In this document: positions 44,218 to 46,977 of the stretch, one piece after another
How the letters are laid out: each line of letters opens with the position of its first letter
Numbering within the stretch: the stretch's first letter is position 1
Position numbers and translations under genes: made by a program
Source: Phyllobacterium myrsinacearum
GTDB taxonomy: Bacteria > Pseudomonadota > Alphaproteobacteria > Rhizobiales > Rhizobiaceae
Assembly (NCBI RefSeq): GCF_014138285.1
Contig: NZ_JACGXN010000013.1
Location: 62,001 to 126,000 of the forward strand
DNA length: 64,000 bases
Direction of reading: 5' to 3'
Notes under the pieces: generated by a model
What the model was told of the DNA's origin: nothing
Database searches by the model: none
What the model saw: only the letters and a program-made list of their open reading frames with translations

Positions 44218-45627
44218 ATGACGACCGCAAAAGACATTCTCAAACAGATCAAGGACAATGATGTAAAGTTCCTTGACCTTCGTTTCACGGATCCGAAGGG
44301 CAAGCTACAGCATGTGACGATGGACGTTGCCGAAGTCGACGAAGACATGTTTGCCGATGGCGTCATGTTTGACGGCTCCTCCATTGCCGGCTGGAAGGCC
44401 ATCAATGAATCCGACATGGTTCTCATGCCTGATACCGACACGGTTCACATGGACCCGTTCTTCGCACAGTCCACCATGGTCATCCTCTGCGACATCCTCG
44501 ACCCGATCTCGGGCGAAGCCTACAACCGCGATCCACGCGGCACTGCCAAGAAGGCAGAAGCCTATATGAAGGCGGAAGGTGTCGGCGACACGATCTTCGT
44601 TGGCCCGGAAGCTGAATTTTTTGTCTTCGACGACGTGAAGTACAAGGCTGATCCCTACAACACCGGCTTCAAGCTCGACTCCACCGAATTGCCGTCCAAT
44701 GACGACACCGACTACGAAACCGGCAACCTTGGCCACCGTCCGCGCGTCAAGGGCGGCTATTTCCCGGTTCCTCCGATTGATTCCTGCCAGGACATGCGTT
44801 CGGAAATGCTCACGGTTCTGACCGAAATGGGCGTCCGCGTTGAGAAGCACCACCACGAAGTGGCAGCAGCACAGCACGAACTGGGTATCAAGTTCGATGC
44901 CCTCACCCGCAATGCCGACAAGATGCTGATCTACAAGTACGTTGTGCATCAGGTTGCAAATGCCTACGGCAAGACAGCCACCTTCATGCCGAAGCCGATT
45001 TTCGGCGACAATGGTTCCGGCATGCACGTGCATATGTCGATCTGGAAGGACGGCAAGCCGACTTTCGCGGGCAATGAATATGCAGGTCTCTCCGAAAACT
45101 GCCTGTTCTTCATCGGCGGTATCATCAAGCACGCCAAGGCAATCAACGCATTCACCAACCCGTCGACCAACTCCTACAAGCGTCTGGTTCCAGGTTACGA
45201 AGCTCCGGTTCTGCTGGCTTACTCCGCCCGCAACCGTTCGGCATCCTGCCGTATTCCGTTCGGCTCTTCACCGAAGTCGAAGCGTGTTGAAATCCGCTTC
45301 CCGGATCCGACAGCCAACCCGTATCTCGGCTTTGCCGCCATGCTGATGGCCGGTCTCGACGGCATCAAGAACAAGATCCATCCCGGCCAGCCAATGGACA
45401 AGGACCTCTACGACCTTCCTGCAAAGGAACTCAAGAAGATCCCGACTGTCTGCGGTTCGCTGCGTGAAGCGCTTCAGAGCCTCGATAAGGATCGCGGCTT
45501 CCTCAAGGCTGGCGGCGTTTTCGATGACGACCAGATCGACAGCTTCATCGAACTCAAGATGGCTGAAGTGATGCGCTACGAAATGACCCCGCATCCGGTC
45601 GAATACGACATGTACTACTCGGTCTGA
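44218..45627 (+). CDS. glnA: Glutamine synthetase type I
   Basis: Condenses ammonium and glutamate to glutamine in a dodecamer. 469 aa with [10 protein letters not shown], the ATP-binding [11 protein letters not shown], the Asp/Arg active-site segment [10 protein letters not shown] and a C-terminal DLYDLPAKE containing the Tyr that is adenylylated in the type I-beta enzymes. It follows glnB after 75 bases with AAGGAA upstream. A strong terminator follows. Confidence 0.98.
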
Positions 45628-45650
45628 TCAGACCGATTTGTCGACAAGGA

Positions 45651-45675
45651 AACCCCGGGCATGCCCGGGGTTTTT
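45651..45675 (+). terminator. Terminator of glnB-glnA
   Basis: AACCCCGGGCA directly opposed to TGCCCGGGGTT gives an 11-bp arm palindrome followed by TTT; it will fold as a GC-rich stem with a tight loop. Confidence 0.88.
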
Positions 45676-46179
45676 GCGTTAGACCAAGGTATGGTCTTTA
45701 AAATGCATGGAAGAATGATATATTGGCCTTGGAGTGAGAGGCGAGCATTCGCCCGCCTCCCTCTTCCTAGATGATGAACCGAACCCGGAGCAAGATTTGC
45801 CAGCTCGTCCGGGTTCGTTTCATTTCCAGGGTGATAACAAGCGGTTTAAACCACATCGTTTCACCTCCAAGTTCAAAGGCAAGGCCATTGGCCCTTGCGT
45901 GATCTGAAAATCAGAATGATTTTCGAAGAGATCACGCAAAATCTAAGTTTTGCAGCGTCCTTTACGCGCCTGTAGCGCGTGGCGCTGCATGTCGGAAGGC
46001 CTATCTTTCCGACGCGCTGCTGGCACAGCGCATACTGCTTCGCCCTTGAAACTCTGTACTGAAATTATTGCCCCCTGCTCTGGTAAAGGCAATAAACGTA
46101 CAGTTGAATCAATGCGATACAGTGAGATGTTAGCAATATTTACCGGAAGAAAATGATGCTTTGGTCCAACGCCGGGCGA
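45676..46179. other. Long gap after glnA with several hairpins and a micro-ORF
   Basis: Apart from the 29-codon minus-strand frame listed separately, no gene is supported. Hairpins: GAGGCG/CGCCTC at 45738-45759; a perfect 10-bp stem CGAACCCGGA/TCCGGGTTCG at 45780-45817, followed by a T-rich stretch on the plus strand; GAAAATCA-gaa-TGATTTTC at 45906-45924; and a composite stem TGCAGCG/CGCTGCA enclosing ACGCGC/GCGCGT at 45951-45989. The last two look like a dispersed palindromic element. A 68-codon plus frame from 45950 was judged non-coding. Confidence 0.5.
45767..45856 (-). CDS. 29-aa micro-ORF with a strong ribosome site
   Basis: GGAGGTGA lies at ideal distance from an ATG (45854-45856) that opens a frame encoding MWFKPLVITLEMKRTRTSW and a basic/hydrophobic end (LLRVRFII). 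The N-terminus loosely recalls the MWxKPxV start of PqqA-type precursor peptides, but the Glu-x3-Tyr crosslink motif is absent and no partner enzyme is near. It could be a leader peptide, a small peptide gene, or chance; the ribosome site is the main support. Confidence 0.4.
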   Translation of the reverse strand: MWFKPLVITLEMKRTRTSWQILLRVRFII

Positions 46180-46977
46180 TTACACCGCGATTGCCTGAAG
46201 CACCTTCACGGCGGCAATCATCTCGCGCTCACGCAAAGCGCGCCGGGCAGCCGCTTCCGCATCCTCGCCCCACTGCTCGATGGTCCAGTCTTCATCGACA
46301 TGCGCCAAGGTCCACGCTTCTTCCCCGGAGACACGTCCTTTGGCTACGGCAAGCGCCAGAATGGCGGATCCGGTCAGTGTGGTGATCGTATGCAGCGCGG
46401 CGACCGCAAAGGCATCCTTGAATTGCCCGAGATGTACGCCGAGAGCGGCAAGCGTCTCGCGCGGCTGCTCCACATACATGACGCCTTCTGCCAGCACAAA
46501 CCGGGCACCGAGGTCGGACGCTGCCCAATCAATCACAGGATCCCAAAGTTCTGTCTGGCGATTGACCAGCCGTTCTGGCGAGCCGGCGCGATAGCACAAC
46601 ATGTCCGAGGAGGCAAAACGCAGCACATCTTCGAGGACAACTTGAGGGTCGCTGACGACCCCGTCGATCGCGGTGTTGGCCAGACGGGTGACCGGCATTT
46701 TCGCCGGGACGATGTCCTTGTCCTGTGCAGCGAATTCGTCAGCAATCATCTGTGCAAGCGCGCGGTTGGGTAGCGACAGGTTCTGGCGTGCCGGCGTCTT
46801 GACGCGCTTGCCGTCAAGTTCAACCGCAAACTGACCATCCCGTTCAACAACATCGACAGCTTTATAGAACCGTTTAGGAAACGGCAGATTTGACTGGACT
46901 TGTGCCCGGCGAACCGGATCTGCATCCGAAGGACCTTCCGGCGTATCCATATTGAAAAGGTCGTTGTTCATCGTCAT
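46180..46977 (-). CDS. ATP12-family F1-ATPase assembly chaperone
   Basis: A 265-aa homologue of the mitochondrial chaperone Atp12, which binds the F1 alpha subunit before hexamer assembly. Family stretches include RFYKAVDVVERDGQFAVELD, RVKTPARQNLSLPNRALAQM and the conserved C-terminal SGEEAWTLAHVDEDWTIEQW. Such genes are typical of alphaproteobacteria. An ATG two codons downstream is an alternative start. It follows rluC with a ~50-base gap. Confidence 0.9.
   Translation of the reverse strand: MTMNNDLFNMDTPEGPSDADPVRRAQVQSNLPFPKRFYKAVDVVERDGQFAVELDGKRVKTPARQNLSLPNRALAQMIADEFAAQDKDIVPAKMPVTRLANTAIDGVVSDPQVVLEDVLRFASSDMLCYRAGSPERLVNRQTELWDPVIDWAASDLGARFVLAEGVMYVEQPRETLAALGVHLGQFKDAFAVAALHTITTLTGSAILALAVAKGRVSGEEAWTLAHVDEDWTIEQWGEDAEAAARRALREREMIAAVKVLQAIAV

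Follow-up and report, generated by a model that had tools for sequence, protein, structure and literature searches.

Downstream of glnA, in the 64,000-nucleotide stretch of Phyllobacterium myrsinacearum DNA analysed here (the window), lies a copy of a family of unannotated peptides, whose mRNA is structured and whose opposite strand carries a promoter-like site, a description that we regard as secure on sequence grounds. The best explanation is that this is a new multi-copy type I toxin-antitoxin family that operates as aapA/IsoA does, and we put the probability of that reading at roughly three in four. The 29-codon open reading frame (ORF) of the original prediction, its Shine-Dalgarno (SD) sequence seven bases from the ATG (counted from GGAGG in the window copy) and the perfect 10-bp stem within the coding part are all present (Table 1). 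The ORF lies on the minus strand, a point left unstated in that prediction, and the element extends well beyond it, to roughly 45697-46092. It is flanked by glnA (plus strand, ending at 45627) and by a minus-strand gene ending at 46180, which we take to encode an ATP12-type chaperone.

Table 1. Features of the element in the window (positions count from the first letter of the 64,000-nucleotide stretch).
Feature	Position	Strand	Remarks
Peptide ORF, 29 codons, stop included	45856-45767	minus	Translation MWFKPLVITLEMKRTRTSWQILLRVRFII, then stop; frame kept across copies
Shine-Dalgarno sequence GGAGGTGA	45868-45861	minus	Read from sequence; conserved in alignment A6
Perfect 10-bp stem inside ORF, CGAACCCGGA with TCCGGGTTCG	45780-45789 with 45808-45817		Read from sequence
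ORF stem as probable terminator stem of opposing RNA and part of mRNA fold	45780-45817	plus	Tail TTTCATTT to 45825; covarying helix, G-U bias
Palindromic insert in leader, about 100 nt	45896-45995		Peculiar to the window copy and a few others
Presumed opposing-RNA promoter TTTAAA-N16-TATATT	45697-45724	plus	Conserved promoter-like site
Presumed opposing (antisense) RNA, about 96 nt	45731-45826	plus	Ends putative; fold z -4.39
Presumed mRNA, about 331 nt in the window copy	45727-46057	minus	Both ends putative; fold z -11.45 for 45725-46057
Helix closing coding domain, SD side CTTGGAG	45865-45871	minus	Window fold and covariation
Helix closing coding domain, 3'-end side CTCCAAG (anti-SD)	45728-45734	minus	Window fold and covariation
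mRNA 3' hairpin	45736-45761	minus	Window fold; A6 helices 11-13
Helix P1 (closes leader domain), 3' side	45872-45882	minus	Window fold
Helix P1, 5' side	46040-46050	minus	Window fold
Tentative mRNA promoter TTGCCT-N17-AATAAT	46064-46092	minus	Not enriched across the family

Several other features of the locus were also observed. A strong terminator-like hairpin (ACCCCGGGCATGCCCGGGGTTTTT, 45652-45675) follows glnA and stands about 20 bp from the opposing promoter. The presumed mRNA is longer in the window copy than the roughly 240 nt usual in the family because its leader carries the palindromic insert. This insert is present three times in the window's own genome (100, 91 and 86% identical); the two besides that of the window also lie inside copies or remnants of the peptide family (L031 and L036), and in L044 a different palindromic insert occupies the corresponding leader site. 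Finally, a block like CAACCCTGCGTTCGTTGC is kept upstream of the presumed mRNA start in many Phyllobacterium copies and may be a regulator site; the version in the window (46085-46115) is looser.

The family was surveyed at both the DNA and the peptide level. A DNA search with positions 45640-45960 as the query found copies in all 20 Phyllobacterium genomes (1-10 per genome, the window's own genome counted) and in none of 39 genomes from other genera. A peptide profile search detected relatives in 66 of 297 genomes, representing 29 of the 109 genera of the family examined. Annotation has missed these peptides, although one genome can hold up to 13 matches. Sampling 385 genomes across the class gave just two matches besides the window's own genome, both marginal (E 8.0e-4 and 8.9e-4). 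One copy outside the order, in a metagenome bin named Maricaulis (L109), reflects either a mis-binned contig or a transfer.

Copies also occur on mobile replicons. With the consensus peptide and a lax limit (E up to 10), tblastn matched 44 plasmid records, with hosts that include Sinorhizobium, Roseibium, Labrenzia, Agrobacterium, Microvirga and Ancylobacter; no annotated gene lay beneath any of the 40 matches listed, in a gene table that is incomplete and for some records empty. At the same limit 16 phage records were matched, the weakest of them doubtful, with no annotated feature beneath the 10 listed, and a scan of viral contigs gave four loci. Genes of the rep or par type lay within about 2.3 kb of a copy in three of 11 contexts, two of the 11 being unannotated; these three lie on plasmids, with repC or a ParB-type gene nearby (L189, L190 and L192). 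The copy at L189:3001-3084, on an Agrobacterium plasmid, is on the same strand as repC and about 560 bp before it. On a freshwater phage contig, two neighbouring copies (L194:3001-3490) lie between the portal and terminase genes, and the whole phage record has three copy sites.

In genomes, the copies are dispersed and often in tandem, as would be those of a small mobile (MITE-like) repeat whose palindromes mimic genes. We consider such a repeat extremely improbable, as the codon constraint, the compensating changes and the conserved promoter-like site described below would be unexpected in a neutral repeat. Constant ends flanking a diverged centre occur in some tandem pairs (L010, L025 and L137); as a general property this pattern was rejected because, of 33 neighbour pairs, only 5 had the ORF region as their least similar part.

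The original prediction proposed a peptide gene and named conservation of the frame in relatives as one of its tests, and the frame has survived that test. Copies for the coding analysis were found by nucleotide profile and aligned as DNA, which avoids choosing them by their peptide. Among the 83 that were less than 90% identical, the start column was ATG, GTG or TTG in 72, and the ORF frame was open over 27 codons in 67 and not open in 16; given that the region is a multi-copy family, the ORF thus goes beyond chance. The other same-strand frames were open in 5 and 19 of the 83, and the opposite-strand frames in 40, 35 and 2. Identity at the three codon positions was 0.63, 0.72 and 0.58 (65 DNA-found rows with a start and an open frame). 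In the peptide-found set (77 copies less than 85% identical), pS was 0.54 and pN 0.28 in frame, and pS/pN in the other frames was 0.36/0.34, 0.24/0.37, 0.36/0.34, 0.45/0.31 and 0.25/0.37; one opposite frame therefore also leans towards pS>pN, less strongly than the peptide frame. Translation from the expected start gives 28-30 aa in 158 of 182 elements and exactly 29 aa in 120. These comparisons indicate that the peptide is under selection and that the family possesses the small peptide gene under coding constraint (typically <60 aa) that characterizes type I systems.

The structure of the presumed mRNA was derived from an alignment (A6) in which 156 full-length elements were reduced to 87 sufficiently different ones with both landmarks, and then to 75 of ordinary length by excluding 12 with a long span. 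RNAalifold divides these mRNAs into two domains, a leader that P1 closes around three hairpins, and a coding domain closed by pairing of TGGAG with CTCCA at the 3' end, inside which lie a GTGA/ORF helix, a start-codon hairpin, the long ORF stem and the 3' hairpin. Across the alignment 88.8% of cells are paired. Changes on both sides were found at 49 of 67 pairs and in 504 cells, against 166±14 after shuffling and at most 139 after sliding, in a count for which the structure came from the very alignment counted and the shuffles ignore relatedness. This count replaces one of 427 doubly changed cells (139±14 shuffled) from an earlier alignment, A3, which held a stub row and 66 mRNAs hand-picked from the 87, 12 elements having been excluded for their long span and nine of ordinary length without a rule. 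The window copy adopts the same fold (-170.5 kcal/mol, z -11.45), and a Sinorhizobium plasmid copy folds with z -4.94.

Our first reading of the initial alignments was that the plus strand gave a structured RNA, about 350 nt long, and that the ORF was merely the shadow of this RNA. That reading was rejected because apparent A-C mispairs on the plus strand are G-U pairs on the minus strand in several helices, and because the peptide outlasts DNA conservation. In A6 the mRNA strand was the better folder in 67 of 75 cases. Counts of G-U on the mRNA against A-C favour this strand in most helices, with three near ties: 126/47 for P1; 26/12, 21/17 and 8/11 for the leader hairpins; 11/4 for the SD/3'-end helix; 5/7 for the SD/ORF helix; 56/8 for the start hairpin; 90/22 and 45/8 for the 3' hairpin; and 19/12 for a small added helix. 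The related proposal that a plus-strand RNA acts alone, as a multi-copy trans-acting sRNA shadowed by the ORF, could draw on the conserved promoter-like site and terminator-like stem of that strand. We nevertheless think it very unlikely: copies collected at the DNA level keep both the reading frame and the codon-position pattern, the peptide is retained in genera where no DNA similarity was detectable, and by the G-U and A-C counts P1, the start and 3' hairpins and the first of those in the leader belong to the minus strand.

As an mRNA promoter, the TTGCCT-N17-AATAAT of the window, with similar boxes in some Phyllobacterium copies, looked convincing by eye; across 135 copies, however, there was no enrichment (score 5.87 against 5.78 shuffled), and we retain it as tentative.

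The pairing of the SD region with the mRNA 3' end was examined separately. Its core, GGAG with CTCC, is nearly invariant, and GGAG is required as an SD sequence regardless of pairing; the flanking bases, however, covary. Outside Phyllobacterium, positions -1/+1 were paired in 41 of 54 copies (23.6 shuffled; reached in 0 of 1000 shuffles), -2/+2 in 36 (25.5; 0 of 1000) and -3/+3 in 19 (14.1; 30 of 1000), and there was no signal at -4/+4 (10 against 9.5). Within Phyllobacterium, positions -1 to -4 were paired in 87, 74, 54 and 19 of 94 copies, against 84.6, 65.1, 43.3 and 13.3 shuffled. Identical copies had been removed from both sets, with no other thinning for relatedness. At the structural level, the modelled fold would give the family the inert primary transcript with a hidden SD sequence that is expected of a type I system.

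On the opposite strand, a promoter-like site (hexamers scoring at least 8 of 12 in the 50 nt beyond CTCC) was found in 131 of 152 copies overall, comprising 42 of 54 outside Phyllobacterium, against 7.8% of shuffles, and 89 of 98 within it, against 14.1%. These sites end mostly 3, 6 or 7 nt before GGAG, at few fixed distances, and by eye follow the consensus CTTGnAA-N16/17-CTATATT. The family thus appears to have the opposing, overlapping RNA gene of a type I system. A transcript from this promoter could cross first the 3' hairpin, then the ORF stem, and end at the 10-bp stem and its T-rich tail. The stem is probably the terminator of the opposing RNA, although the short T-run makes the position of that end an inferred one. 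The ORF stem is also the sole helix that clearly favours the plus strand (G-U/A-C 25/41), which fits such a terminator. A dual-function RNA, as originally suggested, is therefore not the best description, because the second RNA would come from the opposite strand, with the 10-bp stem best interpreted as its terminator.

The same stem is part of the coding sequence. In A6, where codon n begins at column 136+3(n-1), 47 of the 59 doubly changed ORF-stem cells (helices 9 and 10) fall at pairs 177-210 (30 cells), 180-207 (8) and 183-204 (9), which set third base against third base in codons 14/25, 15/24 and 16/23. The stem thus varies mostly where the peptide need not, and this wobble-against-wobble arrangement is a clear case of one sequence shared by two strands.

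The peptide itself has the consensus M[WR]xxP[LF]SITLx[MV]KRTRT[SG]WQxxxRVxF and, over 149 distinct sequences, a mean charge of +4.8 and a mean hydropathy of 0.10. Both halves show polar/apolar alternation (strand moments 2.4 and 2.8; helix moment 0.6). For a 30-residue natural member from Rhizobium sp. FKL33 (L119), AlphaFold2 predicted a beta-hairpin with strands at residues 6-16 and 19-29 (mean pLDDT 81.3, pTM 0.30), and we predict this form for the peptide. A hydrophobic membrane helix is the usual, though not universal, form of type I toxins; with this hydropathy and charge, and with strands predicted in L119, the present peptide does not conform to it, and a beta-hairpin peptide would broaden the concept of such toxins.

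It was also originally suggested that the start of the peptide loosely resembles PqqA-type precursors, and its MWxKP start does recall PqqA. A role as a modified-peptide precursor (PqqA or another RiPP), or as a leader peptide for a following gene, now seems scarcely credible. The window peptide has no Tyr, and the 30 members searched gave neither an NCBIfam nor a convincing Pfam match. The Glu-x3-Tyr motif is absent: position 11 is commonly E, and four residues further on 136 of 149 distinct peptides have T. No recognisable peptide-modification gene was present in nine gene-listing contexts, in one of which (L192) a 'methyltransferase' adjoins the copy. The leader peptide that was also proposed is unlikely because no gene follows on the minus strand of the window before the convergent glnA.

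According to the type I reading, we infer that the minus strand would give an mRNA for a cationic peptide some 29 aa long, and that the full-length form would be translationally inert through pairing of the CTCCAAG at its 3' end with the CTTGGAG of the SD region across the entire ORF, the leader being closed separately as a three-hairpin domain. Once the 3' end was trimmed, the ribosome site would become accessible. The promoter just outside the mRNA 3' end would meanwhile give the plus-strand RNA, which, through its complementarity to the mRNA's 3' half, would bind the freed mRNA and lead to its destruction. Should this antisense RNA be lost, through plasmid or phage loss or stress, synthesis of the peptide would follow and harm the cell. 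The proximity of plasmid copies to repC or ParB-type genes, together with the phage copies, suggests that the role would be maintenance of the carrying plasmids and phages; the chromosomal arrays may, from the layout, be remnants or countermeasures.

The unenriched mRNA promoter, the copies whose frame is not open (16 of 83), the dissimilarity of the peptide to the usual type I toxin and the short T-run of the antisense RNA all count against this toxin-antitoxin reading. Furthermore, the evidence for coding, structure and an opposing promoter would fit equally well an antisense-controlled, non-toxic small protein, that is, a repeated regulatory or structural micro-peptide under the same RNA control. 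We judge that alternative unlikely, as a hidden ribosome site with an overlapping antisense gene, tandem copies and plasmid and phage carriage are typical of type I systems. To our knowledge, no earlier type I system is known in the order Hyphomicrobiales; no report of such a system was found in the open-licence literature, and an earlier description elsewhere is possible. Should the type I interpretation hold, the family would allow plasmid stability, carriage by phages and persistence to be tested in symbiotic bacteria.

Database searches gave no convincing match to known families. The 30 members gave just two single-member Pfam matches, to unrelated families (best E 0.08), and none in NCBIfam; there was nothing convincing in PADLOC, among PDB sequences or in PHROGs (best E 0.16). 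At the gathering score of Rfam 15, the window gave only a tRNA elsewhere and 20 loci with copies gave no match, and the hits that Rfam gave within an E limit of 10 were below the gathering scores.

Ibs/Sib and Ldr/Rdl of E. coli combine repeated chromosomal copies, a very small peptide gene and an opposing RNA, and the present family is similar in having a repeated tiny peptide gene with a (here predicted) opposing strand gene. However, the Ibs/Sib and Ldr/Rdl peptides are hydrophobic, whereas the present one is cationic, alternates between polar and apolar residues and has no Pfam match. Plasmid carriage and an antisense RNA, in the present family a presumed one, are common to the family and hok/sok. 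In the Hok/Gef systems, as outlined in the relevant passages of PMC6733600, the SD sequence is concealed by a downstream anti-SD, as it would be in the present fold; unlike hok/sok, the 30 members have no Hok/Gef match in Pfam. The repABC ctRNA of rhizobial plasmids, in the portion of PMC10194956 that describes it, is a small antisense RNA of 55-59 nt that controls repC. The present family likewise has a small, presumed antisense RNA on rhizobial plasmids, with the Agrobacterium copy about 560 bp before repC; it differs in that no peptide is described for the ctRNA in that portion, and in that the present element is also found in chromosomes and phages.

The proposed mechanism parallels that of aapA/IsoA of Helicobacter pylori which, in the passages of PMC6733600 devoted to it, has several chromosomal copies, a small toxic protein and a cis-overlapping antisense RNA; its primary mRNA is inert through 5'-3' pairing that hides the SD sequence, 3' trimming activates the mRNA and the antisense RNA captures the active form. 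Compared by description, the present family is analogous in its predicted hidden SD sequence, its several copies, its presumed cis-overlapping antisense gene and, on the type I reading, its small toxic peptide. It is different from aapA/IsoA in its leader, which forms a closed three-hairpin domain, in the location of the opposing promoter at the mRNA 3' end, in the predicted beta-hairpin of its peptide and in its Hyphomicrobiales hosts.
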